A program made the position numbers and the translations under genes. Below, in pieces: positions 2,713 to 42,099 of a stretch of 64,000 bases of DNA. Below the pieces are notes generated by a model, which did no database searches, was not told the DNA's origin, and worked only from the letters and a program-made list of their open reading frames with translations. Source of the stretch: Rhizobiales bacterium 64-17 (GTDB lineage Bacteria; Pseudomonadota; Alphaproteobacteria; Rhizobiales; Xanthobacteraceae). The stretch lies in contig MKWA01000009.1 of the NCBI GenBank assembly GCA_001899285.1, forward strand, positions 131,776 through 195,775. Direction: 5' to 3'. The stretch's first letter is position 1. Every line of letters starts with the position of its first letter.

Positions 2713-3402
2713 TTAAAATAGCGTCCCGCTCTCCTCCTTACGACGGCGTACGCGCGGTGGTCGCCGCTGATATTCATCCCACGCCGCAACGAAACGCGCC
2801 CAAAACCTCATCAAGTCCCCTTCATCGAGAGGGTGCGCACGTTTCCAGTCTAGGCATGAAAATCTCCGAGTATTGGCTTTTTCTTCCATCGAAACTGACA
2901 CAAAATCCAAATCGTAGGATTTAAATTCTTTTTGCCGATCAAGTAATGCCATCCTCAATATTGCAGCTACCGCACTTACCTGATGATCATTCAATGGCTT
3001 CATCCAAAAATACAGAACCAACAACCGAGGCTGGGGCAACTCTCGAACCCAGATAGGCGCAATACGAAGTTTCATTCCGTTGGGAATTGTTGTCGACAGC
3101 CCAATCTTTGAAACACGTGATCTCGGTTGTTTAAGCAAGAAATCCCGAGAATGGTTCAGTACATCAACAGCGCAGCCTCGTTCTCTTCCATCGAGTCTCT
3201 CCGCCTCCTCTATCGCACGCTCCCACGAGAGATCTCCTGAAAGAACTGAACAGAACAACCGCCGAGCAGGCTCATACACAGGCGGAGATGGTTTCTCTGC
3301 CTTAAAAAGCAAATCGATTGTCTTTTCTCGATCGTCAAAAACCATCGACGCAGTTGAAAGAAACGAAGGCAACTCCCGCAACTTCTTACCGTAAGCCACC
3401 AT
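2713..3402 (-). CDS. hypothetical protein, AT-richer orphan gene
   Basis: A 229-residue protein I do not recognise. It looks soluble, with no signal peptide or membrane span, a middle beta-like stretch (IAPIWVRELPQPRLLVLYFW), and a basic C-terminal tail (RRPPRVRRRKEESGTLF). ATG at 3402 has GGAGAG 7 bases upstream. Codon and base use are clearly more AT-rich than all neighbours, which suggests horizontal acquisition. The promoter side has a perfect TATAAT -10 hexamer overlapped by a 17-base palindrome, so expression is probably repressed by a DNA-binding protein. It is flanked by a hairpin array on one side and a short selenoprotein-like gene on the other. Confidence 0.7.
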   Translation of the reverse strand: MVAYGKKLRELPSFLSTASMVFDDREKTIDLLFKAEKPSPPVYEPARRLFCSVLSGDLSWERAIEEAERLDGRERGCAVDVLNHSRDFLLKQPRSRVSKIGLSTTIPNGMKLRIAPIWVRELPQPRLLVLYFWMKPLNDHQVSAVAAILRMALLDRQKEFKSYDLDFVSVSMEEKANTRRFSCLDWKRAHPLDEGDLMRFWARFVAAWDEYQRRPPRVRRRKEESGTLF

Positions 3403-3431
3403 TTTGTCTCTCCGACTCGATGCGCAATTGA

Positions 3432-3460
3432 ATTATACGCATTCCGTATATATCGGAGCA
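3432..3460 (-). promoter_or_regulatory. promoter with palindromic operator for the 2713-3402 gene
   Basis: Reading the minus strand, a consensus -10 TATAAT lies at 3437-3432, about 30 bases before the ATG. The hexamer 17 bases upstream (3460-3455, TGCTCC) is a poor -35. A perfect inverted repeat TATACG-N5-CGTATA spans 3434-3450 and overlaps the -10 element and the spacer, which is where a repressor or a spacer-binding activator would sit. No matching regulator is encoded next to it. Confidence 0.6.
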
Positions 3461-3605
3461 CGCGGCCGATCCTCTTCGAAGGGTGGCATGGCAGATGGAG
3501 CGATCATTCGTCAGCGTCTAAAAATTGGGTCATCTCGACCAGATCGCTGTGCTAACTTTCCCAGCAGCTATTTCAGTTTCATGATCCACGTTGCGGATAT
3601 CGTCC

Positions 3606-3821
3606 ATGCTCATCACCATCCACTACTGCGGCAGTTGAGGCTACGAGCCCAAAGCCCTCCGTGCGGGGGCCAGACTGCGGGAACGAACCGGCGCCGAGAT
3701 CGAGCTGATCCGCTCGTCGGGCGGCGTATTCGAGATCGCCGTGAACGGCGAATTGAAATTTTCCAAACAGGCGCTCGGCCGGTTTCCGGCCGATGCGGAG
3801 ATCGACGCGATCGCGCGATGA
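3606..3821 (+). CDS. SelW/Rdx-family selenoprotein with in-frame UGA (CxxU)
   Basis: Translation from ATG 3606 gives MLITIHYCGS, then TGA at 3636-3638, then GYEPKALRAGARLRERTG and on to a TGA stop at 3819-3821: 71 codons. Read as selenocysteine, the TGA completes a CGSU redox motif just after the first beta strand. This matches the SelW/SelT/SelH (TIGR02174, thioredoxin-like Rdx) fold, and the later FEIAVNGELKFSKQALGRFP matches the family's second half. The frame stays coding-like on both sides of the TGA. A SECIS-like hairpin follows the UGA. An upstream in-frame stop at 3582 limits the start to ATG 3606 or TTG 3591; the Shine-Dalgarno is weak. No sel genes are in the window. The alternative is a CxxC homologue with a nonsense mutation, which I think less likely. 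Confidence 0.82.
3639..3673 (+). promoter_or_regulatory. candidate bacterial SECIS hairpin
   Basis: Directly 3' of the UGA the RNA can fold with G3654-C3670, C3655-G3669, C3656-G3668 and C3657-G3667, a bulged U3658, then C3659-G3666 and C3660-G3665, closing a GUGC loop at 3661-3664. Features known for bacterial SECIS elements are present: a small apical loop that starts with G (here GU), a bulged U on the 5' side, and a UGA-to-loop distance of 22 bases. It would be bound by SelB to insert Sec. The fold is worked out by hand, not computed. Confidence 0.65.
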
Positions 3822-3834
3822 GAGCGTCCTCGGC

Positions 3835-4920
3835 TTACGCCGCTAGTTCGATCCGGTTACGCCCGGCCTGTTTGGCGCGATAAAGCCCGGCATCGGCCGC
3901 GCGCATCAGCTTGGCGATGTCGTCGAGACGGTGCGTGCTGTGCGTCATGCCGCCCGACAGCGTGACCGAGAACCGGCTGCCGTGGCTGACGATCTCCTGC
4001 GCCTCGACGGCGCCGCGTACGCGCTCGACCACATCATAGGCATCCTGCGACGACAGATCCGGCAGGATCGCCGCGAATTCCTCGCCGCCGATCCGTGCCA
4101 CGAAATCCGACGGTCGCAGCGTGCGCAGCATGGTCTCCGCACAGGCGCAGAGCGCGGCGTCGCCGGCAGCGTGACCATAGCGGTCGTTGACCGCCTTGAA
4201 ACGATCGACGTCGAGGAACACCACCGCGAACGGCTCGTCGGCCGCCATGTGCTGCTGCAGGCGCCGCTCGAACGCGCGGCGATTGTAAAGCCCGGTGAGC
4301 GGATCGCGCAGCGCCGCCTCGCGTAGCACGCGCGCGCCACGCTCATAGGCGATCGACAAGGCGAACGCACCGCTCCCGACCGTATGGAATAGGCCGCCGA
4401 ATACACCGATCAGCAGCATGATGTCGTCCGGCAACGCACCCGCGATCGGCGCACCGAACACGATGCCCTGCCCGGCGCGAACGGTGAACGCGACCGCGAG
4501 CATGCCGTAGGCCGCGATCAGACCGTAGCGTGACGGCAGCCGGTCGCCGCGGTCGCGCAGGAATTCGTAGGTGATGGCGATGCTCCAGGCGGCGAACGTG
4601 CCGTTCACCAACAGGAAGCGGAGACCGTGATCCACCAGCGACGGCACCGGATAGAGGCTCAACGTCAACAATGCCGGGAGGAAGACCGTCCGCAGCGGCG
4701 CGGCGCGCCCGCCGAATTGACGCGCGGCGCGCCAGCGAAACCCAAGCCCGAGCACCAGCAGGCTGTTGGCCAAAGCCAGCGCGATACTGAACCGGTCTGC
4801 CGGCAGCAGCATGAAGCACACCATGGACATCACCATCACCAGATTGGCGATGATCCACGACAGCCAGCAGCGCTCCTGCCGCCGACTGAGCCAGGCGGTG
4901 AAAAACGCCAGCGCCATCAC
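3835..4920 (-). CDS. membrane GGDEF diguanylate cyclase
   Basis: Probable inner-membrane c-di-GMP synthase, at least 361 residues. The N-terminal half is hydrophobic (about five or six spans) with no known sensor motif. The C-terminal GGDEF domain starts near RDPLTGLYNRRAF and has the active-site GGEEF and an RPSD inhibitory (I-site RxxD) motif five residues before it, so product feedback is likely. The start is uncertain: the frame is open and hydrophobic back to a stop at 5050-5052 (for example QAAILALFAANAVILAV), but the only ordinary start codons are GTG 4923 and ATG 4920, which would cut into the first membrane helix. The gene converges on the selenoprotein-like gene, with 13 bases between them. 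Confidence 0.88.
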   Translation of the reverse strand: MMALAFFTAWLSRRQERCWLSWIIANLVMVMSMVCFMLLPADRFSIALALANSLLVLGLGFRWRAARQFGGRAAPLRTVFLPALLTLSLYPVPSLVDHGLRFLLVNGTFAAWSIAITYEFLRDRGDRLPSRYGLIAAYGMLAVAFTVRAGQGIVFGAPIAGALPDDIMLLIGVFGGLFHTVGSGAFALSIAYERGARVLREAALRDPLTGLYNRRAFERRLQQHMAADEPFAVVFLDVDRFKAVNDRYGHAAGDAALCACAETMLRTLRPSDFVARIGGEEFAAILPDLSSQDAYDVVERVRGAVEAQEIVSHGSRFSVTLSGGMTHSTHRLDDIAKLMRAADAGLYRAKQAGRNRIELAA

Positions 4921-9769: not shown

Positions 9770-10866
9770 GCGGCGATCCCGCCGCCGGTCGCCTGCCTGC
9801 GGCCGAACTCGGCCCAGACCCCGCCGTCGCCATCCCAGCTTCCCCGGCTCGCGGCCTTTGAATATTCCGTCGCCCGTTGCTCGAAGAAATTGGCGTGCTC
9901 GACGCCGTTGAGGATTTCCACCAGCCACGGCAGCGGGTGAGGCTTGATTTGCCGGTAACCACCCTCGGCGGTCTCGAAGTAGCCGAACACCGGGGTCAGC
10001 TTGAGTTGCGTCAGCCGCCAGTCGGCGACGTAGCGGACATAGGCGTGAATCTCCGCCGCCGTCATGCCCTCGATCCCGCCGAGCCCGAAGGCAAGATCGA
10101 CGAAATTCTCCTCGAGCTGCACCATCGTCCTGGCGACATCGATGATGTCGTCGCGCACCGAGTTTGTGACCGCGCCGGTCTCGCGATGCCATTCGTGGAA
10201 CAGCCTGATCAGGCCTTCGCAATGCAGGCTTTCGTCGCGCACCGACCAGCTGACGATCTGGCCCATGCCGTTCATCTTGTTGTGGCGCGGAAAGTTGAGC
10301 AGCATCGCGAAGCTGGCGAACAGCGCCATGCCCTCGGTGAAGGCACCGAACATCGCCAGCGTGCGCGCCACATCCGACACCGTATCGACGCCGAACTGGT
10401 GCATGTAGTCGGCCTTGGCGCGCATTTCCGAATAGTCCCGAAACGCCTCGAACTCCGTCTTCGGCATGCCGAGCGTCTTCAACAGCAGCGCATAGGCGTC
10501 GATGTGCACCGTCTCCATATTGGTGAAGGCGGCCATCATCATCTGCACAGTCAGCGGCTGGAAGATCGGGATATAGCGCTTGAGATAATTGTCGCCGACC
10601 TCGATGTCTGACTGCGTGAAGAACCGGAAGATCTGCGTCAGCAGCGCCCGCTCGTTTTCCGTGACCCGCTCGGACGCCCAGTCCTTGAGATCGCTCCCGA
10701 GCGGCACCTCCTCGCCCATCCAGTGCGTCTGCTGCTGACGCTTCCAGAATTCATAGGCCCAGGCATACCGATCGACATCGTAGGTGCCGGTGGCGTCAAG
10801 CAATCCGACCCGGCCTTTGCCGATCAGCGTGCGCGGATCGACGTGTCCCAAACCCGTCACTGACAT
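9748..10866 (-). CDS. nrdB: class Ia ribonucleotide reductase beta subunit
   Basis: Radical-generating small subunit, 372 residues, which with NrdA reduces ribonucleotides to deoxyribonucleotides. The diiron/tyrosyl-radical pattern is visible: METVHIDAYALLL supplies E-x2-H-x3-Y, so the radical Tyr is present, and SVRDESLHCEGL supplies the second Glu/His set. The start MSVTGLGHVDPRTL at 10866 overlaps the nrdA stop by 10 bases, giving translational coupling. The longer frame to 11058 lies inside nrdA and is not used. The pair is probably controlled by the cobalamin riboswitch upstream of nrdA. Confidence 0.93.
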   Translation of the reverse strand: MSVTGLGHVDPRTLIGKGRVGLLDATGTYDVDRYAWAYEFWKRQQQTHWMGEEVPLGSDLKDWASERVTENERALLTQIFRFFTQSDIEVGDNYLKRYIPIFQPLTVQMMMAAFTNMETVHIDAYALLLKTLGMPKTEFEAFRDYSEMRAKADYMHQFGVDTVSDVARTLAMFGAFTEGMALFASFAMLLNFPRHNKMNGMGQIVSWSVRDESLHCEGLIRLFHEWHRETGAVTNSVRDDIIDVARTMVQLEENFVDLAFGLGGIEGMTAAEIHAYVRYVADWRLTQLKLTPVFGYFETAEGGYRQIKPHPLPWLVEILNGVEHANFFEQRATEYSKAASRGSWDGDGGVWAEFGRRQATGGGIAAQREAGG

Positions 10867-12815
10867 GCGAGGCACTCCTCGTAATCGGTGCGGGCCGGCG
10901 CGGACAACACGTTCTCGGCATTCTCGGCGTTCGTGGTCTTTCCGGTCTTCTCCAACTGACCGGCGAAGCCCGCACGCGAGATCGACTTGGAGCGGCAGTA
11001 GTAGAGGCTCTTCACGCCGCGCTTCCACGCGCTCCAGTGCAACATGTGCAGATCCCACTTCTCGACATCTGCGGGAATGTAGAGATTGATCGACTGGCTC
11101 TGGCAGATGAACGGCGAACGGTCCGCCGCCAGTTCGACCACCCAGCGCTGATCAATCTCAAACGCGGTGCGATAGGTCGCGCGCTCGTGCTCGGTCAGCG
11201 CATCGAGATGCGCCACCGAGCCTTCATGCTCGATGATCGACTGCCAGACGTCCGGCGTGTCCATTCCCTTGGCGGCGAGCAATCGCGCGAGATGCGGGTT
11301 GCGCACCGAGATCGCGCCGGACAGCGTTTTGTGCGTGTAGATGTTGGCGGGGATCGGCTCGACGCAGGCGCTGGTGCCGCCACAGATGATGCTAATCGAC
11401 GCGGTCGGCGCGATCGCGATCTTGTGGCTGAACCGCGCCATCACGTTGCGCTCCAGCGCATCCGGGCACGGCCCGCGCTCGTGCGCCAGTTCCACCGAGG
11501 CGGCATCGGCGTCGCGGCGGATTTTCCGGAACATGGTCAGGTTGAACGACTTGGCCATCGCGCTTTCAAACGGGATGCCCTTCGCCTGCAGGAACGAGTG
11601 GAAGCCCATCACGCCAAGCCCGACCGAACGCTCGCGCAAAGCGGCATATTTCGCACGCTTCATGCCGTCCGGCGCCACCGTGATGAAATGCGTCAGCACG
11701 TTGTCGAGGAAACGCATCACGTCCTCGATGAAACCGGGCTTGTCCTTCCACTGGTCCCAGGTTTCGAGATTGAGCGACGACAGGCAACAGACCGCCGTGC
11801 GCTCCTCGTCGCGGTGGTCGAGGCCGGTCGGCAGCGTGATCTCGCTGCACAGATTGGACGTGGTGACTTTCAGCCCGAGTTCGCGCTGATGCTTCGGCAG
11901 CGCCCGGTTCACCGTGTCGATGAACAGCAGATAAGGCTCGCCGGTCTGCAACCGCGTTTCGAGGATGCGCTGCCACAGTTGCCGCGCATCGACCTCGCGC
12001 ACCACCTCGCCGCTTTTCGGACTGCGCAGCGGAAAACTCGTCCCGGCCCCAACCGCCTCCATGAATTCGTCGGTGACGTTGATGCCGTGATGCAGATTGA
12101 GGCTCTTGCGGTTGAAATCGCCCGATGCCTTGCGGATTTCGAGGAACTCCTCGATTTCCGGATGATGGATGTCGAGATAGACGGCGGCCGAGCCGCGTCG
12201 CAGCGAGCCCTGGCTAATCGCCAGCGTCAGCCCGTCCATCACATGGATGAACGGGATGATGCCCGACGTGACGCCGCCCTTCACCTTCTCGCCGAGCGAG
12301 CGCACGCGGCCCCAATAGGTGCCGATGCCGCCGCCGTTCGACGCCAGCCAGACATTCTCGTTCCAGGTGCCGACGATACCGTCGAGCGAGTCCGAAACGG
12401 AATTGAGGAAGCAGGAGATCGGCAAGCCGCGCGTCGTGCCGCCGTTCGAGAGAACAGGCGTCGCCGGCATGAACCAGAGTTGCGACATCGCGTCGTAAAG
12501 CCGATGCGCATGCGCCACATCGTCGGCGAAGGCGCAGGACACGCGGGCGAACATGTCCTGGAAGCTTTCGCCGTCGAGCAGATAGCGGTCGGTCAAGGTC
12601 ATCTTGCCGAACGCGGTCAGCAGGCCGTCGCGCGACCGGTCGAGTTTCAGATCGGACGGCTTCGGCTGTCCGCCGAGCGGCCCCGGCAGCGGCGCGGGAT
12701 GGCGCTCCGCCACCAGCCGCAATTCAGGTGGTGACGCTTTCGGCCCCGGAGATACCGGGACGGATTTGGTGGAGATCAGATCACCTTGGTGATCGAAGTC
12801 GTAGGACAGAGACAT
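10857..12815 (-). CDS. nrdA: ribonucleoside-diphosphate reductase alpha subunit, no ATP cone
   Basis: Catalytic large subunit, 652 residues. Active-site and radical-path elements are present: LPISCFLNSVSDSLDGI (first redox Cys), TSNLCSEITLPTG (thiyl-radical Cys), CCLSSLNLE (second redox Cys) and a C-terminal CLACQ tail for re-reduction by thioredoxin or glutaredoxin. The two Tyr near SLYYCRSKS fit the radical path. The N-terminal 60 residues are Pro-rich with no ATP-cone motif, so the overall dATP on/off switch seems absent. ATG 12815 (MSLSYDFDHQG) is chosen over an upstream extension because the extension runs into riboswitch leader sequence. It overlaps nrdB. Confidence 0.93.
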   Translation of the reverse strand: MSLSYDFDHQGDLISTKSVPVSPGPKASPPELRLVAERHPAPLPGPLGGQPKPSDLKLDRSRDGLLTAFGKMTLTDRYLLDGESFQDMFARVSCAFADDVAHAHRLYDAMSQLWFMPATPVLSNGGTTRGLPISCFLNSVSDSLDGIVGTWNENVWLASNGGGIGTYWGRVRSLGEKVKGGVTSGIIPFIHVMDGLTLAISQGSLRRGSAAVYLDIHHPEIEEFLEIRKASGDFNRKSLNLHHGINVTDEFMEAVGAGTSFPLRSPKSGEVVREVDARQLWQRILETRLQTGEPYLLFIDTVNRALPKHQRELGLKVTTSNLCSEITLPTGLDHRDEERTAVCCLSSLNLETWDQWKDKPGFIEDVMRFLDNVLTHFITVAPDGMKRAKYAALRERSVGLGVMGFHSFLQAKGIPFESAMAKSFNLTMFRKIRRDADAASVELAHERGPCPDALERNVMARFSHKIAIAPTASISIICGGTSACVEPIPANIYTHKTLSGAISVRNPHLARLLAAKGMDTPDVWQSIIEHEGSVAHLDALTEHERATYRTAFEIDQRWVVELAADRSPFICQSQSINLYIPADVEKWDLHMLHWSAWKRGVKSLYYCRSKSISRAGFAGQLEKTGKTTNAENAENVLSAPARTDYEECLACQ

Positions 12816-13150
12816 CAGCAACCCCGTGATGTGAGGGCTGAGGCCAATCGGACACTTGCGGGCGATCCGGACGGTCAGTCCGGCTGCAAGCGACCCGCGA
12901 GGCACCCCGCCCGAGGACGTTCATCGATCACGGCAGGTCTCCTGGCTCGCGGGTCGCAGCGGCTGTCGGTCTTCCCGGCGCATTCGCACCAGTGACGCTG
13001 ATGACAGCCGCTCGCCGCTGACAGTTGCGGGGGCAGCTCCGGCTTGGCCTTCTGGCCTGTGTCTGGCCGTCGGGCGTCCCGGATTCCCTCTTAGCTTCCC
13101 TTCCAGTCCCAGCCAAAATGACTAGGAATAGGTCGGAAAGACCGTGATGA
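12816..13150 (-). promoter_or_regulatory. cobalamin riboswitch and leader of nrdAB
   Basis: On the minus strand the leader carries the hallmark cobalamin-aptamer blocks in order: GGGAAGCTAAGAGGGAATCC near 13100-13080, GCTGCCCCCGCAACTGTCAG near 13040-13018, GTCACTGG near 13000, CCGGGAAGACC, and GCCAGGAGACCTGCC ending near 12930. The aptamer spans about 13114-12928. In the expression platform, GCGACCCGCGAG (12957-12946, overlapping the aptamer) is perfectly complementary to CTCGCGGGTCGC (12901-12890), and a CCGGAC/GTCCGG hairpin lies at 12867-12883. High B12 should switch off this B12-independent enzyme, as known for class Ia nrd operons in Streptomyces. Confidence 0.93.
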
Positions 13151-27555: not shown

Positions 27556-28316
27556 GCGGTCGGCGTGACAGTGCGGTCGGAACGAAGTGGAACGGTGCTG
27601 GCCGGACGTCGCAACCAGGTGGTGGCGAAGGCGTAGAGATACCAGCGCAGATAGGCCGGCAGCCAGCGCAGAACGCGAAACCGGCTCTGCCCCGCCTGCC
27701 GCTCGAACCAGCGCGCCGGAACCTCGCCGATCTTGAGCCCCAGACGGTGGCTTTTGACCAGGAGTTCGATGCTGTAGCAGAAGCCGCGGTCGGATTCGAT
27801 GACGATCGTGTCCAGCACCCGGCGGGAAAACAGCCGGAAGCCGTTGCTGGCGTCATGGGTCGGCAGTCCGGCCAGATGATAGAGCGTGAAATTTGCGCCG
27901 CGCACCAGCGTCGCCTTGAGCCACGGGCAGCCGACCATGGACCCGCCGGCCATGAAACGGCTGGCGCAGACGATGGCGCAACCCGCCTCCGCCTTGGCCA
28001 CCATGGCGTCGAGCATGCCGGCATTATAGTCGTCGTCGGCGGGGAACATCAGCACCTGCGGCGCCTGCGCGGCGGCAAAGCCCGTCAGCACCGCGCCATG
28101 CGCGCCGCGTCCGGCATTGCGTACGAACACGATGTCCATGGTCGTCATCAGATCGGGATGTGCGCGGATCGTCGTCAGCGTGTCGTCGTCCTCGCGGTCG
28201 TAACAGATCAGCACCCGGAACGGCGTCTTCAGCCCCGCACGCAGCGAGGTCAGCGTCGGGACGATGACGCCGCCTTCGTTGTAGACCGGGATGACGATGT
28301 CGAGCCGCGGCGTCAT
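27552..28316 (-). CDS. family 2 glycosyltransferase
   Basis: A 254-residue GT-A fold transferase. It begins LDIVIPVYNEGGVIVPTL, with FPADDDYNAGMLDAMVAKAE as the DxD region and GFRLFSRRVLDT later. A basic hydrophobic segment (LPAYLRWYLYAFATTWLRR) near the end could touch the membrane. Polyprenyl-phosphate or lipid-linked sugar synthesis is possible. It overlaps the dehydratase gene by 4 bases and is preceded by the UDP-sugar dehydrogenase gene. Confidence 0.88.
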   Translation of the reverse strand: MTPRLDIVIPVYNEGGVIVPTLTSLRAGLKTPFRVLICYDREDDDTLTTIRAHPDLMTTMDIVFVRNAGRGAHGAVLTGFAAAQAPQVLMFPADDDYNAGMLDAMVAKAEAGCAIVCASRFMAGGSMVGCPWLKATLVRGANFTLYHLAGLPTHDASNGFRLFSRRVLDTIVIESDRGFCYSIELLVKSHRLGLKIGEVPARWFERQAGQSRFRVLRWLPAYLRWYLYAFATTWLRRPASTVPLRSDRTVTPTA

Positions 28317-28325
28317 GACCGAGGG

Positions 28326-29543
28326 TCAGTAGACGACGTTGGCGCGTTGCAGGAAGCCCCAGACATCGACCACCGGCTTGCCGCCGAGCGGATGCGCCTT
28401 GTACGCCGAGTGTGGCGTGCACAGGATCATGAGATCGCTGCGCGCGATCACCTCGTCGAGCGGCAAGAGGTCCGTGTCGGTGGTGACGAACGGATCGGTG
28501 GCGATCACGTCGCGCGCCACGGTGCGCAGCGACTTCTTCACCTTGTAGCTCAGCGAGGCGCGGGTGTCGTCGATATCCGCCTTGAACGCCATGCCGAGCA
28601 GACCAACGGTCATCGCGCCGAGGTCGAACTGGCGGCGCAGATCCTCGACCATGTGCAACGCCAGGCCCTCGTTGACATGCATCGCCGCGTGGCCGATGCC
28701 GAACTGATTGCGCGCGAACGAGGCAAGCTGCATCGTATCCTTGAACAGGCACGGACCGGCGGCGAAGCCCGGCCCCGGCACAGTGCGGGCACGCGGATAG
28801 TTCTGCTTCATCGCCTTCATGATCTGCTGGTAGTCGGCGCCGGCCGACTTGGCGATCATGTAGAACTGGTTGGTCGCGGCGAATTCGATGTAGCGGTAGG
28901 CGTTGTTGAACAGCTTGGCGAACTCCGCCTCGAGCGGCTTCACCGTGACGATCTCCGGCGCGAGCTTCGCGAACAGCGCCGCCGCCTCCCGCTCCGCTTC
29001 CGGCGTAGTACCGGAGACGATCTGCGGCATCTCGCGCAATTCCTTGACGCCGTAGCCCTGCACGATCCGCTCCGGGCAGAACGCCACCTTGATGTTGCGG
29101 CCGACGCGCTTGAGATACTCGTCCACCCACGTGGTGGTGCCGGGATAAACGGTCGAGCGCAGGATCAGCAACTGTCCGTCGACCATGTGCGGCAGCAGCG
29201 AGTCGATGCAGGCTTGCACCGCCTGCTGCACCGGATTGAAAAACTCATCGACCGGCGTGCCGATGGTGACGATCACCGGCCCCGGCGCGCTGATGCCGGC
29301 CGGCGACGACGAGAACACCAGCCGGTTCCTGGCCAGCGCATCCTTGAGCAACGGTTCGGCGTCGTATTCGATGAACGGCAGCTTGCCGGACTTCAGCGTC
29401 GCGATCGATTGCTGATTGAGATCGTTGATGTTGACGGTGAGGCCCGCATGGGTGAACGCGAGCACCAGCGGCACGCCGACATGACCGGCGCCGCCGACCA
29501 CCGTCATATCCGCGACGGGTGCGGATGAATTGGCACTGCTCAC
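28326..29543 (-). CDS. nucleotide sugar dehydrogenase
   Basis: A 405-residue UDP-glucose/UDP-ManNAc dehydrogenase-type enzyme that oxidises a UDP-sugar C6 to a uronic acid with two NAD. The Rossmann site is VVGGAGHVGVPLVLAF (a GxGxxG variant), the ERIVQGYGVKELREMP loop is present, and the catalytic Cys is in PGPGFAAGPCLFKDT. A central LLGMAFKADIDDTRAS joins the two domains. It is closer to WecC/VpsB than to Ugd by its FCPER...G pattern, but the sugar specificity is not certain. It overlaps the methyltransferase gene by 4 bases. Confidence 0.88.
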   Translation of the reverse strand: MSSANSSAPVADMTVVGGAGHVGVPLVLAFTHAGLTVNINDLNQQSIATLKSGKLPFIEYDAEPLLKDALARNRLVFSSSPAGISAPGPVIVTIGTPVDEFFNPVQQAVQACIDSLLPHMVDGQLLILRSTVYPGTTTWVDEYLKRVGRNIKVAFCPERIVQGYGVKELREMPQIVSGTTPEAEREAAALFAKLAPEIVTVKPLEAEFAKLFNNAYRYIEFAATNQFYMIAKSAGADYQQIMKAMKQNYPRARTVPGPGFAAGPCLFKDTMQLASFARNQFGIGHAAMHVNEGLALHMVEDLRRQFDLGAMTVGLLGMAFKADIDDTRASLSYKVKKSLRTVARDVIATDPFVTTDTDLLPLDEVIARSDLMILCTPHSAYKAHPLGGKPVVDVWGFLQRANVVY

Positions 29544-30265
29544 AGCTTCTCTCCCGATGTCAGCACGAAGGCGCGCATCGGAGCCAACGGCGGCAGATTG
29601 AAAATCATGGAATCGAGCCAGTTGTAGACCGGCAGAAACAATCGCGCGCGCGAGGACGCGACATACCGATACGACAAGCCTGACAGATAATCGGTCTCGA
29701 CCTTGAAACCAGCGGCAGAAAACAGCGCCGCCACCTCGCCGGCGACGATCGGCCGCTCGTTCTCGGTGACGCCGACCGGGCTGTAGAACGGCGATGAGCG
29801 GTCGCGGTAGAGATACATGAACGGATTGCGGCGGTTCGGATCGAACGCCATGAAGCGCCCGCCCGGCCGCAGCACGCGCTGCACCTCGGCGATGCAGCGG
29901 CGCGGATCGGGGAAATGGTGGATCACCCCGGACAGCAGCACGCCGTCGAGTTCGCCGTCCTTGAACGGCAGATGCTCGATGTCGCCCTCGATCAGCTCCA
30001 GACCCGGATATTTCCGCCGGCCGACCTCCAGCAGCTTCGGGCTGATATCGATGCCGGCGGCGCGATAGCCGCGCTGACGCAGGAGATCGGTGAACAGGCC
30101 GGAGCCGCAGCCGAGATCGGCGACCCGCGCGCCCGGCGCGAGGCCGGTGAGCCGCGCGAAGCTGTCGATCAGCAACGCGTTCGAGGCTTCCGTGAATACG
30201 TTGTAGTCGTCGGCCGCAGCGTGGCCGTCGAAAAACGCGATTTCCTTGGCCTTATCCTGCGCCAT
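29540..30265 (-). CDS. class I SAM-dependent methyltransferase
   Basis: A 241-residue methyltransferase. VADLGCGSGLFTDLLRQ is motif I, followed by GIDISPKLLE, then EGDIEHLPFKDGELD and VLSGVIHHFPDPRR. The C-terminal part (LFLPVYNWLDSMIFNLPPL) is hydrophobic and could bring it to a lipid-linked sugar. MAQDKAKEIAFFDGHAA at 30265 is the likely start; an upstream in-frame ATG at 30343 adds 26 Pro-rich residues. It is first in the polysaccharide operon: methyltransferase, dehydrogenase, glycosyltransferase, dehydratase, gmhA. Confidence 0.82.
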   Translation of the reverse strand: MAQDKAKEIAFFDGHAAADDYNVFTEASNALLIDSFARLTGLAPGARVADLGCGSGLFTDLLRQRGYRAAGIDISPKLLEVGRRKYPGLELIEGDIEHLPFKDGELDGVLLSGVIHHFPDPRRCIAEVQRVLRPGGRFMAFDPNRRNPFMYLYRDRSSPFYSPVGVTENERPIVAGEVAALFSAAGFKVETDYLSGLSYRYVASSRARLFLPVYNWLDSMIFNLPPLAPMRAFVLTSGEKL

Positions 30266-30400
30266 CAATCCGCGCCATGCCCCGACCACCGGCACCGGAG
30301 CCGGCGGCGCGCGGGTCTTACCGGCAATCGTCCGTGATTTCAACGGCCTGCGGGCTTTGGACTGGGCGCGGGAGCAGTCTTCGGGCGCCGCCCGCCGGGA

Positions 30401-30523
30401 TCAGGCGTCGGGACGCCGGCCGGCCTGGGCGTTGACATAGGCGAGCGCCGCGCCGAACGCCAGAAAGGCGACGGCGATCAGCGCCAGGAACATGGTTTCG
30501 CCGGATGAGAGGTGAGCGAGCAT
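30401..30523 (-). CDS. 40-residue single-span membrane protein behind an FNR/FixK box
   Basis: A short frame: MLAHLSSGETMFLALIAVAF, then LAFGAALAYVNAQAGRRPDA. It has one hydrophobic helix (about 11-30) and a short basic-polar tail, typical of small respiratory-complex accessory proteins. GGAGAA precedes the ATG at 30523. A perfect FNR/FixK palindrome is centred 60 bases upstream, and if it sits at -41.5 the transcript would start near 30542, 19 bases before the ATG. A role in microaerobic respiration is inference from the box and neighbours. Confidence 0.72.
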   Translation of the reverse strand: MLAHLSSGETMFLALIAVAFLAFGAALAYVNAQAGRRPDA

Positions 30524-30567
30524 GGATCGTTCTCCGCAAGATGAACCTGATCTTGCGCAACCGGCCG

Positions 30568-30792
30568 CTAATCGCCTTGATCCGGATCAAGCGCGGTGAG
30601 ACCGCCATTGGCCAGACGGCGGATCGCCAACATGTGCACCCGGCCGCAAGCGATGCATTTGATCGCGTGATGAGTGCCGAGATCGCCAATATCGTCCGCC
30701 TCGTCCTGGGCCACGAAGTCCTGCACCGTCATCCCGGTGGTCGGACACCGGAACAGGAACGGAGCCATGACATCGCGTGCGGGTTCACCCAT
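30568..30792 (-). CDS. small Cys-containing protein
   Basis: A 74-residue protein beginning MGEPARDVMAPFLFRCPTTG, with three Cys (16, 46, 49) and nearby His in HHAIKCIACGRVHMLA. The CP-x-T plus C-x2-C layout resembles a zinc-ribbon-like fold, though a fourth ligand would have to be His. ATG 30792 has GAGGGA upstream; a TTG at 30813 would extend it by 7 residues into the cytochrome gene and is less likely. It follows cytochrome c closely and may be co-transcribed from the fixK side. Its 3' end holds the FNR box of the next gene. Confidence 0.72.
   Translation of the reverse strand: MGEPARDVMAPFLFRCPTTGMTVQDFVAQDEADDIGDLGTHHAIKCIACGRVHMLAIRRLANGGLTALDPDQGD
30577..30590 (-). promoter_or_regulatory. 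FNR/FixK box (TTGAT-N4-ATCAA)
   Basis: TTGATCCGGATCAA is a perfect 14-base palindrome that matches the CRP/FNR-family FixK/FNR consensus. It lies at the end of the preceding gene, 60 bases from the 40-residue membrane protein's ATG. That is the right geometry for a -41.5 class II activator site. A fixK gene is encoded 2 kb away. Confidence 0.82.
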
Positions 30793-30809
30793 GACTCGAT
30801 CCCTCGCGC

Positions 30810-31145
30810 TCAACGTTCGAGCGACTTCAGGAAGGCGATGAAATCGCCAATCTGATCCGGCTCCAGCCGGAATTCCGGCATGCTCGGATGACCGGTGACG
30901 ATGCCTTCGGCCAGCGCCTCATCGAGCGTTTCCACCGGATAGCGCTGATGCAGCGTGCGGAACGGCGGCGCGAGCGACAAGGGGCTCGGACTAACCTTGT
31001 CGATCGCATGACACCGCGCGCAGTTGGCGAGCGCGAACGCACGCCCGCGCTGCTCACCCGGCGAAAGCTGCGCGCTGGCGCCGGCCGACGCGACGGTGAG
31101 TATCGCCGCCGCCAGTACCGTCATCCGCCAACCGATTACGGACAT
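30810..31145 (-). CDS. small periplasmic c-type cytochrome
   Basis: A 111-residue monoheme cytochrome with an N-terminal signal peptide (MSVIGWRMTVLAAAILTVAS, cleavage near AGASAQ). The heme-binding CARCH is at 42-46, and a Met in GHPSMPEF is the likely sixth ligand. The C-terminal helix IGDFIAFLKSLER fits class I cytochromes. It overlaps the DUF6455 gene by 10 bases upstream and the small Cys-protein gene follows closely. Electron transfer in microaerobic respiration is likely but unproven. Confidence 0.85.
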   Translation of the reverse strand: MSVIGWRMTVLAAAILTVASAGASAQLSPGEQRGRAFALANCARCHAIDKVSPSPLSLAPPFRTLHQRYPVETLDEALAEGIVTGHPSMPEFRLEPDQIGDFIAFLKSLER

Positions 31146-31540
31146 GACGCCTGATGCGCCTTGTCGTCCTTCAGGGACTGCAAGGTCGTCTCGTTGCCGC
31201 AGTAAGTCCGGCCGGCCTCGACATCGTGGTGGGCGAGATCCTTGGCGCAGCGGCGTTGCGAATGACACATGGCGCAGGTGTGTTCGAGATCGCGCACGAC
31301 CGCCGGACCGGCCTTCGCGAGATCCTGACGATCGAGACCGAGTTCGCGCAGGCGGTCGTACAGCAGTTGCGGCGACTGCGGGCCTTTCCGGGCCAGCATC
31401 TTCAATTCGGATTCCGTCAGACCCAGATCATGGGCGATGCGGGACAACTCTCCACCCTCCTCCAGATCGTGAGGGAGCGCACGCACGGCAAACACATTGC
31501 GAAGCCAGGCCGAGACGGATTGGAAGGGAGCGGATTGCAT
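31136..31540 (-). CDS. DUF6455-type Cys-rich protein
   Basis: A 134-residue protein. It begins MQSAPFQSVSAWLRNVFAVR, and its Cys-rich C-terminal half has HTCAMCHSQRRCAKDL then TYCGNETTL. This CxxC-x4-C...C pattern is found in small alphaproteobacterial proteins of unknown function, often beside cytochromes. CxxCH here could suggest heme attachment, but there is no signal peptide, so metal binding is more likely. ATG 31540 has AGGAGA; ATG 31591 would add 17 residues (MSDHPRIVSTHDHQETV). It overlaps cytochrome c. Confidence 0.75.
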   Translation of the reverse strand: MQSAPFQSVSAWLRNVFAVRALPHDLEEGGELSRIAHDLGLTESELKMLARKGPQSPQLLYDRLRELGLDRQDLAKAGPAVVRDLEHTCAMCHSQRRCAKDLAHHDVEAGRTYCGNETTLQSLKDDKAHQASCP

Positions 31541-31605
31541 GACAGTCTCCTGGTGGTCGTGGGTCGAAACGATACGCGGGTGGTCGGACATGATTTCCGG
31601 GCTCG

Positions 31606-32454
31606 CTAGTGCGCCATCAGCACTGGCTGGGTTGCCTGCTCGATGACCTGACGGGTGACGCCGCCGAACAGCATCTGGCGGACATGGCCGTGGGTGTAGG
31701 CGCCCATGACGATCAGACCGGAGCGGCGGGCGCGCGCCTGCCACAGCAAGGCATCGCCGATACCGGGGGCGTCGCTCCGCGGCGTCAGCGCCGCGACCAG
31801 GCCGTGCCAATGCAGATAACCGAGCAGCGCATGCGGATCGGCATCGCGGCGCGGTTCGTCGACCGCAAACACTTCGACCGCATCCCGGCTTGCGGCCAGG
31901 AGCGGCAGCGCGCCCTTGATCGCCTGCGAGGCTTCCAGGCTGCCGTTCCAGGCAATGATGGGCCGATAGAACAGATCGGCGCGCGGTCCTTCCGGCACCA
32001 TCAGCACCGGACGGTGCGATTCAAACAGCGCGGTCTCCAGCGCCAGCGCCCCGGCCACGGTGGCACGGTCCGGTTTCGCCATGATCGTGAGGTCGGTGAG
32101 CCGCGCCGCGGCGGCGAGCAGATCGGATTCCCACCCGACCAGTTCGCGCCAGCAGAAGACACAGCCGGCGGGCGCGGCCTCTCCCTCGATCAGTTCGTTG
32201 GCCCGCAGCCACCGGTCGAAATGATCGCGCGCGCGCAGCGCCGCTTCGTTGGCATATTCTGCCACCAGCGCGTCGAGACCGGCACCGGCTTTCGGCTTGA
32301 ACGAGGTCAGCCGGGTCGCATCGGCCGGCGCGAACCGGCAATGCAGCACATCGACATGCGCCGACAGCTTCGCGGCGACCATCAGCGCATAATCGAGCAC
32401 CGCGATATCGGCCGGAGAACCGTCGATCCGGGCGAGGATATGCTTGATCGCCAT
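31606..32454 (-). CDS. universal stress protein, tandem UspA domains
   Basis: A 282-residue protein of two UspA-like halves. Half 1 begins MAIKHILARIDGSPADIAVL and ends near VLMVPEGPR. Half 2 begins FYRPIIAWNGSLEASQAIKG and ends GLIVMGAYTHGHVRQMLFGG then VTRQVIE; the second half contains the ATP-binding-like GxxxHx9G pattern. Tandem USPs of this type are common in FixK/FNR regulons. It starts 24 bases after the fixK stop on the same strand and probably shares its transcript. Confidence 0.88.
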   Translation of the reverse strand: MAIKHILARIDGSPADIAVLDYALMVAAKLSAHVDVLHCRFAPADATRLTSFKPKAGAGLDALVAEYANEAALRARDHFDRWLRANELIEGEAAPAGCVFCWRELVGWESDLLAAAARLTDLTIMAKPDRATVAGALALETALFESHRPVLMVPEGPRADLFYRPIIAWNGSLEASQAIKGALPLLAASRDAVEVFAVDEPRRDADPHALLGYLHWHGLVAALTPRSDAPGIGDALLWQARARRSGLIVMGAYTHGHVRQMLFGGVTRQVIEQATQPVLMAH

Positions 32455-33393: not shown

Positions 33394-34917
33394 ATGCTCG
33401 CAGCGCCGGCCCCTTCCCCGCCCGATGCCACGTCCTCCGCGGCGTCGCCGCGCCGCGCGCGGCTGCTGCGGCCGGCCCTGAGCTATCCGATCGCCGCGGC
33501 GCTGGCGGCGGCCGCCTTTGGCCTGCGCCTCCTCCTCGAACAGAGCCTGCAAAGCGAAATCCGCTATCTGCTGTTCATCCCGGCGGTGCTGGCGGCGAGC
33601 CGGCTCGGCGGCCTTGGTCCGGGGCTGCTGGCCACGGCAGCCAGCGCGCTGCTGGCGCTCGACCCGTCGGATTTTCCGCTGACCCCGGCGAAGACGCTGG
33701 CGCTCACCGTATTCGTGGTGATCGGCGCCGGGATCGCCTGGTTCGGCGAGCGGCTGCTGCGCACTCGCGATGCCATCGTCGCCAGCAACGCCGACCTGCG
33801 CGCCCGCGAGGCGCACCTGCAATCAATCCTCGACACCGTGCCGGATGCGATGATCGTCATCGATCCGCGCGGCACCATCCGCAATTTCAGCGCCGCGGCC
33901 GAGCGGCTGTTCGGCTATCAGGCCGCCGAAGTGATCGGCAAGAACGTCAAGATGCTGATGCCTGATCCCTATCGCGAACGGCACGACGGCTATCTCGAAC
34001 GCTACAACCGCACCGGCGAGCGGCGCATCATCGGCATCGGCCGCGTCGTCGTCGGCGAGCGCAAGGGCGGCTCGACCTTCCCGATGGAGCTTGCGGTCGG
34101 CGAGATGCGCTCCTCCGACCAGACCTATTTCACCGGCTTCGTGCGCGACCTCACCGAGCGGCAGCGAACCGAGACGCGGTTGCAGGAACTGCAATCCGAA
34201 CTGGTGCATATGTCGCGCCTCACCGCCATGGGCGAGATGGCTTCCACGCTCGCGCACGAACTCAATCAGCCGCTCGCCGCGATCGCCAATTACCTGAAGG
34301 GATCGAGCCGGCTGATCGAACACCGCACCGACGAGGATGCGGTGATGCTGCGCGAGGCGATGCAGAAGGCGACCGATCAGGCAATCCGCGCCGGCCAGAT
34401 CATCCGCCGGTTGCGCGACTTCGTCGCGCGCGGCGAAAGCGAGCGGCGGGTGGAGAGCGTCACCAAGCTGGTGGAGGAAGCCAGCGCGCTCGCCCTTGTC
34501 GGCGCGCGCGAGCAGAGCGTGCATGTGCGCTTCCGGCTCGATCCGGCCTGCGACCGGGTATTGGCCGACAAGGTGCAAGTGCAGCAGGTGCTGGTGAACC
34601 TGATCCGCAACGCCATCGAAGCGATGGCCGACAGGCCGGTGCGCGAACTAACTATTACCTCGACGCCGGTCGCCGGCGGTTTCACCGAGATCAGTGTCGC
34701 CGATACCGGCTCCGGCATCGCGCCGGAAGCGGCGGCGCAACTGTTCCAGCCGTTCTTTACCACCAAGCGCTATGGCATGGGCGTGGGCCTGTCGATCTGC
34801 CGCACCATCGTCGAGGCGCATGGCGGCAAGATCGCCGCCGAGCCCAATCCAGGCGGCGGTACGCGCTTCCGGTTCACCTTGCGCATGGTGGACGAACGGG
34901 ATCTCGACGATGAGTAA
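33394..34917 (+). CDS. fixL: FixL-like PAS sensor histidine kinase lacking the heme His
   Basis: A 507-residue kinase. There are about three hydrophobic segments near 30-110, a PAS domain (about 135-250, with [18 protein letters not shown] and [14 protein letters not shown]), then HisKA with the phospho-acceptor His288 in [13 protein letters not shown], and HATPase ([25 protein letters not shown]). The domain order and many residues match FixL. At the position of the heme-ligating His (before IIGIGR in known FixL) the sequence is [10 protein letters not shown], with Arg211 (CGC at 34024-34026). Either this kinase does not bind heme there, or it uses another ligand. ATG 33394 is likely; a GTG at 33349 adds 15 residues. 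It overlaps fixJ by 8 bases. Confidence 0.85.
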
Positions 34918-35533
34918 GCTGGCCGACACGGTACTGGTGGTCGATGACGACGACGGCGTGCGCCAGTCGCTGGCGTTCCTGCTGAAGAGCGCGCGGCTGC
35001 CGGTGGAGACCTATGCCTCCGCCACCGAACTGATCGCCAAGCTGCCGGCGGATCACGCCGGCTGCATCATCACCGACGTGCGCATGCCCGGCATCAGCGG
35101 CATCGATCTGCTGCGCCATGTGCGCGCCTTGCCGCAGCCGCTGCCGGTGATCGTCATCACCGGTCATGGCGACGTGCCGCTTGCGGTCGAGGCGATGAAA
35201 TACGGCGCGGCCGATTTCCTCGAAAAGCCGTTCGACGACGATGCCCTGCTCAACGCGGTGCGCGCCGCGCTCGACACCCGCCATATCGCCGAGCGGCAGG
35301 ACAGCGAGCGCGCCGACATTCTCGGCAAGCTCGCAAGCCTCACCGCCCGCGAACGTCAGGTGCTCGACGGACTCGTCGCCGGCCGCGCCAACAAGATCAT
35401 CGCCTTTGACCTGTCGATCAGCCCGCGCACGGTGGAGATCTACCGCGCCAATGTGATGACGAAAATGCAGGCGCAGAGCCTGTCCGACCTGGTGCGCATG
35501 GCGCTCTCGGCCGGGCTGCTGGACCGCGGATAG
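34910..35533 (+). CDS. fixJ: response regulator FixJ
   Basis: A 207-residue two-domain regulator. The receiver domain (about 1-125) has Asp56 in [10 protein letters not shown], conserved VITGHGD and LEKPFD. The C-terminal LuxR-type HTH contains [19 protein letters not shown] and [18 protein letters not shown]. It should be phosphorylated by FixL and activate fixK. ATG 34910 overlaps the fixL stop, so the pair is coupled. Confidence 0.9.
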
Positions 35534-35572
35534 CGTCGGACACAAACGCGTGATGCCATTGCCGGCGCGGCC

Positions 35573-35586
35573 TTGACCTCCCTCAA
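35573..35586 (+). promoter_or_regulatory. FNR/FixK-like half-matching box before the universal stress gene
   Basis: TTGACCTCCCTCAA has the outer TTGA-N6-TCAA of FNR/FixK boxes, but C instead of T/A at positions 5 and 10, so it is weaker than the 30577-30590 box. It is centred 95 bases before ATG 35674, with a possible start near 35621. FixK control of the USP gene is plausible. Confidence 0.4.
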
Positions 35587-41974: not shown

Positions 41975-42014
41975 GCCGTCCCGGCCTGCAGGGGCGAACC
42001 CAGGAAACCGACAA

Positions 42015-42099
42015 GAAAAAAGGGCCGCCTGCGAAAGCAAGCGGCCCAAGTCTAGGGAGGAAACGCCCAAGGAGGGCAACGATAGCTCTCGCTACCGCA
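42015..42099 (-). ncRNA. suhB/MmgR-type small RNA
   Basis: On the minus strand: hairpin GGTAGC-GAGA-GCTATC (about 42105-42080), hairpin GCCC-TCCTT-GGGC (about 42078-42066), an unpaired UUUCCUCCCU stretch, then a strong terminator stem GGGCCGC/GCGGCCC followed by TTTTTT at 42021-42016. CU-rich, anti-Shine-Dalgarno-like loops plus an intrinsic terminator next to an inositol-monophosphatase-family gene match what I know of the suhB (Rfam) / MmgR (alpha-r8) sRNA of Rhizobiales. A promoter candidate CTTGCC-N17-TATGTT lies at 42135-42107. It is divergent from the downstream phosphatase gene, so it is not that gene's leader. Confidence 0.68.

Follow-up and report, generated by a model that had tools for sequence, protein, structure and literature searches.

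Selenoproteins of the SelW-like CxxU type (Pfam PF10262) have long been known in bacteria. They formed the most abundant selenoprotein family of the Sargasso Sea set, with 48 genes (PMC1088965), reached 427 genes in the Global Ocean Sampling (GOS) data (PMC2398784), and are listed in a 2026 review (PMC13188914); PMC1794560 and PMC9312934 also report them, all five sources being cited from the passages available. In eukaryotic selenoprotein genes, the selenocysteine insertion sequence (SECIS) lies in the 3′-untranslated region (PMC1088965). Here, we describe a selW-like gene at 3606..3821 on the forward strand of a 64,000-nucleotide stretch (the window) from Rhizobiales bacterium 64-17. We are highly confident that it is a functional selenoprotein gene of the Rdx family in which the TGA at codon 11 is decoded as selenocysteine (Sec), and it is a real, well-supported further member of this family. 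The window lies on contig 9 of a 4.63 Mb genome (26 contigs, completeness 100).

The coding sequence runs from an ATG at 3606-3608 through an in-frame TGA at 3636..3638 to a terminal TGA, codon 72, at 3819-3821. Its 71 codons thus give MLITIHYCGSUGYEPKALRAGARLRERTGAEIELIRSSGGVFEIAVNGELKFSKQALGRFPADAEIDAIAR when the internal TGA is written as Sec. The coordinates agree exactly with the frame proposed in the initial annotation, which had also placed the TGA at the second redox position of a CxxU motif; we find this motif at 3627..3638 as Cys8-Gly-Ser-Sec11, with the Cys8 codon at 3627-3629. We scored the product against family profiles with Cys in place of Sec. It matched the Pfam Rdx model PF10262 over residues 3-67 (E 4.5e-15, 56 bits, cut-off 22.6) and the NCBIfam model TIGR02174 at 48.2 bits, above the curated cut-off of 34.2. 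The proposed SelW/SelT/SelH Rdx assignment was therefore borne out, as was the claim that family-like sequence continues past the TGA; the frame is kept on both sides of the codon in 15 loci. An AlphaFold model with Sec as Cys has a predicted local distance difference test (pLDDT) score of 95.9, with a strand at residues 2-8 and a helix at 14-28. Sequence, model and structural matches agree on a thioredoxin-like fold with CxxU following strand 1. The 71-residue product would be a minimal thioredoxin-like domain in which Cys8 ends strand 1 and Sec11 sits in the loop leading into helix 1.

All 22 aligned rows agree at both redox columns (Sec written as Cys). Ahead of the TGA, every row has Cys8, and nearly every row has Ile5 and Tyr7. 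These residues bear on whether the real product could be a short protein starting past the TGA. RefSeq annotates a relative in that way. A search of plasmids for selW gave one match, in Thermomicrobium roseum DSM 5159 (NC_011961.1, record 408173-408409), where the start of TRD_RS11105 ('Rdx family protein') is placed downstream of an in-frame TGA in a CTSU motif. A short product would, however, lose strand 1 and both redox residues and would leave the conserved residues upstream of the TGA unexplained, so we consider it most improbable for the window gene. The residues upstream of the TRD_RS11105 start, together with a SECIS-like hairpin spaced as in the window gene, suggest that this record is itself a truncated selenoprotein annotation. 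The initial annotation supposed that ordinary gene finders stop at the TGA of the window gene and miss it; the T. roseum case indicates that such genes are easily shortened in annotation.

We then considered whether a Cys-type Rdx gene has been hit by a nonsense mutation or misread in sequencing, which would make it a pseudogene with a frame that can still be followed. A single base separates TGC from TGA, and Cys forms occur in the same family. Against this, TGA stands at codon 11 in 15 loci, whose record titles and groupings name Alphaproteobacteria, Gammaproteobacteria and Neomarinimicrobiota, and every stop inside the selW matches is TGA, none being TAA or TAG. Selection persists downstream of the TGA, where the ratio of nonsynonymous to synonymous substitution rates (dN/dS) was 0.17-0.30 in five comparisons; over the 10 codons upstream it ranged from 0.17 to 2.53 with one value undefined, too few codons to judge. 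A congener (G016) carries a copy 94% identical to that of the window, and a metagenome-assembled genome (MAG) record titled Pseudolabrys sp. gave a match with equal identity and an identical translation (L050 and L019), so that the host of the window probably belongs to the genus Pseudolabrys. The TGA is thus conserved in relatives and not private to one strain, and together with the covarying hairpin described below this makes mutation or error very unlikely.

The Sec machinery was searched in the same genome, and all four genes are present on contig 13, each above its family cut-off: selA at 27725-29062 (591.8 bits, cut-off 267.9), selB at 29904-31793 (423.7 bits, cut-off 242.25), the tRNA-Sec gene (selC) at 31872-31963 (80 bits, cut-off 47; ARAGORN agrees, anticodon TCA) and selD at 34647-35576 (430.3 bits, cut-off 125). 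Upstream of selA lies a formate dehydrogenase-N alpha subunit whose frame also crosses a TGA (TIGR01553, 1389.5 bits). The tRNA-Sec gene falls wholly inside an extended selB frame (L002 1501-1596; the frame reaches 1632), an arrangement resembling the nested selBC of Alphaproteobacteria described by Mukai in 2021 (PMC8124441, in the passage available).

Across the Xanthobacteraceae, 32 of 391 genomes carry selW, the same 32 by protein query and by Pfam model. Nine have the TGA and 23 have no stop; 22 of these 23 read as TGC, the other (G378) having escaped tblastn so that its codon was not read. selA was found in 116 of the 391 genomes, in 9/9 of those with the TGA gene versus 0/23 of the other selW genomes (Fisher 3.6e-8, uncorrected for relatedness). 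Six further TGA genomes (loci L052-L057) included five with selA, G391 being the exception. Within the genus, 4 of 43 genomes carry selW, the codon being TGA in three of them and TGC in G015. Only 3 of 13 selA-positive congeners carry selW, so the gene is optional even with the Sec machinery.

These counts bear on another explanation, in which near-cognate suppression, or decoding as a different amino acid such as Trp or Cys, carries translation past the TGA. The identity of the residue cannot be read from translation alone, and the Sec machinery could serve formate dehydrogenase alone. Yet selA tracks the TGA form, Sec is known at this very position in the CxxU family (PMC13188914), and a SECIS hairpin is found in the TGA genes and absent from the TGC genes. 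We give non-Sec decoding very little credence and infer that Sec is inserted at codon 11.

The available text of PMC13188914 sets rules for bacterial SECIS elements: a loop of 3-9 nt, a stem of 4-16 bp, a G at the first or second loop position, a distance of 16-37 nt from the TGA and an energy of at most -7.5 kcal/mol. At 3654..3670 (+ strand), we find GCCCUC(CGUGC)GGGGGC, with a 6-bp stem (3654-3659/3665-3670) and a 5-nt loop (3660-3664), lying 21 nt past the TGA and having -9.0 kcal/mol by itself. It satisfies all four constraints of that source. Screening uninterrupted hairpins after the codon-11 TGA that meet the spacing, loop and G rules, we find that this one alone passes the energy rule; in the same screen, no hairpin after the terminal TGA does. 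SelB with Sec-tRNASec, held by the hairpin that lies 21 nt further along, would read codon 11 as Sec, while codon 72, having no such hairpin after it, would terminate translation.

Comparing the 15 TGA rows at this fixed position, we dropped one that was identical to another over 60 nt. All 14 distinct sequences pair at five positions or more and have a G as the first or second loop base, versus 0/22 TGC sequences. When these proteins were recoded with synonymous codons, 1.02 sequences were expected to do so at the fixed position, and none of 10000 trials gave more than 7. Changes on both sides occur in three of the six pairs (8 cells, 0/500 shuffles), and the covariation score was 0.412 compared with 0.174 in shuffled data, none of 500 shuffles reaching it. 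All six alternatives were worse when the register of the hairpin was slid. The T. roseum gene, found later, has CCACC(CGUGC)GGUGG, again 21 nt past its TGA. Its CGUGC loop recurs in 7 of the 14 distinct TGA sequences, and the 21-nt spacing is kept from Thermomicrobiota to Pseudomonadota.

Several observations weigh against a Sec-decoded gene. Single-sequence folding gave z values of 0.34, -0.31 and -0.46, and of -1.44 and -0.90, none unusually stable. A generic SECIS-like hairpin rule applied to minimum-free-energy folds did not separate the two forms (12/15 TGA vs 13/22 TGC). When G was required strictly as the second loop base, 12/15 rows passed, two of them identical, and the outermost pair is formed in only 5/14. 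Two of five covariation measures were weak, double-change pairs being reached in 14/500 shuffles and further pair types in 45/500. A search of the selW gene against Rfam found no match at E up to 5. No clear ribosome-binding site precedes the ATG by eye, and scanning 3400-3900 for sigma-70-type sites revealed no promoter ahead of it. A selA search was negative in one MAG with the TGA gene (G391, completeness not given), and no selA was found on the T. roseum plasmid record, the chromosome not having been searched. The fixed-position test also leans towards its result because the position was chosen after seeing these folds; this bias is offset by the covariation of the stem and by the later-found T. 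roseum hairpin at the same 21 nt.

The selW gene seems to stand by itself, both flanking open reading frames (ORFs) being on the other strand: a 229-aa ORF at 2713-3402 upstream and a GGDEF protein at 3835-4920 downstream. In the window and in G058, G012 and G015, selW and a UPF0114-type gene (Pfam name checked for the window copy alone) are some 0.5-1.7 kb apart, and their relative orientation is preserved. Across 16 loci, the neighbours included no operon partner naming a substrate, and the common ones (UPF0114, methyltransferase, two-ABC-domain ATPases) look like background synteny. Searching the 43 congeners for UPF0114, we obtained matches in 31 genomes and examined 30 loci with flanks of about 1.5 kb or to the contig end. 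selW lay within the flanks at two loci (L111 and L127) and outside them in the window (L100) and in G016 (L128). The other 26 showed no selW within these flanks, only two chance-level matches (E 1.6 and 3.0).

G015 has the same UPF0114-type neighbour, and its selW (L021; L099 7216-7422) reads CEPC with a TGC codon; no selA match was found in this genome. It would form a natural Sec/Cys pair with its TGA-bearing relatives. In a tree of 22 of the 37 loci (15 Sec and 7 Cys rows), all Sec rows lie on one side of a branch with support 95/87, and the G015 row lies just outside. With ten of its 19 inner branches left open and some long branches flagged, the tree does not settle the direction of the Sec/Cys change. 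These data suggest, as a tentative view that we hold with somewhat less than even confidence, that selW moves with the Sec trait: where selA is lost, only the TGC version stays at the same locus (a pattern seen in the single case of G015), and the gene spreads with its SECIS intact. If true, natural Sec/Cys pairs would be available in close relatives. Such close versions of one small protein are material for testing why Sec is kept.

Rfam at gathering scores reported only three elements in the whole window: a cobalamin riboswitch, a suhB/mmgR small RNA and a tRNA. The riboswitch (12927-13148, reverse strand, 105.2 bits) lies directly upstream of a long same-strand ORF at 10857-12905, which resembles a ribonucleotide reductase large subunit. 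The suhB/mmgR match is at 42007-42084 on the reverse strand (72.5 bits).

For Alphaproteobacteria, a 2006 survey, in the passage available, recorded one selenoprotein family (FdhA) with three selenoproteins, members having selA-selB-selC operons showing no selenoprotein other than FdhA (PMC1794560). The window gene thus represents a second family for a group recorded then with FdhA alone. The extension is modest and may already sit in data sets, because three known selenoprotein genes are listed for the alphaproteobacterium Afipia carboxidovorans in a table of 2025, their names falling outside the available passage (PMC12013277). Our literature search found nothing on selenocysteine in Pseudolabrys, subscription papers being mostly outside it so that earlier print is possible, and the sole match for selenoprotein SelW in Rhizobiales concerned ticks. 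The understanding of selenoprotein decoding is unchanged by this gene.

Animal SELENOW forms an intramolecular selenylsulfide in its CXXU motif and gives glutathione-dependent protection, according to the available text of PMC8508763. By analogy with the family (PMC1088965, PMC8508763), we infer that the window product is probably a small thiol/selenol oxidoreductase using a Cys8-Sec11 selenenylsulfide cycle, perhaps reduced by glutathione. Mouse selenoprotein W (2npb) is 25% identical to it. The model fits the SelW-related bacterial structures 2fa8, 2ojl, 2p0g, 2oka, 2obk and 3dex with a root-mean-square deviation of 1.0-1.1 over 70-71 residues at 24-31% identity. Unlike the window gene with its TGA, 2fa8 has Cys at the Sec column, as presumably do the other five. 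The top-scoring NCBIfam model was the Campylobacter-type equivalog SelTWH_Campy (NF041051), yet at 78.2 bits the product stays under its threshold of 88 and is not assigned to it. With the described bacterial SelW-like CxxU selenoproteins the window gene shares the fold family, the CxxU motif and a SECIS just past the TGA; it differs in its host, a member of the Xanthobacteraceae.
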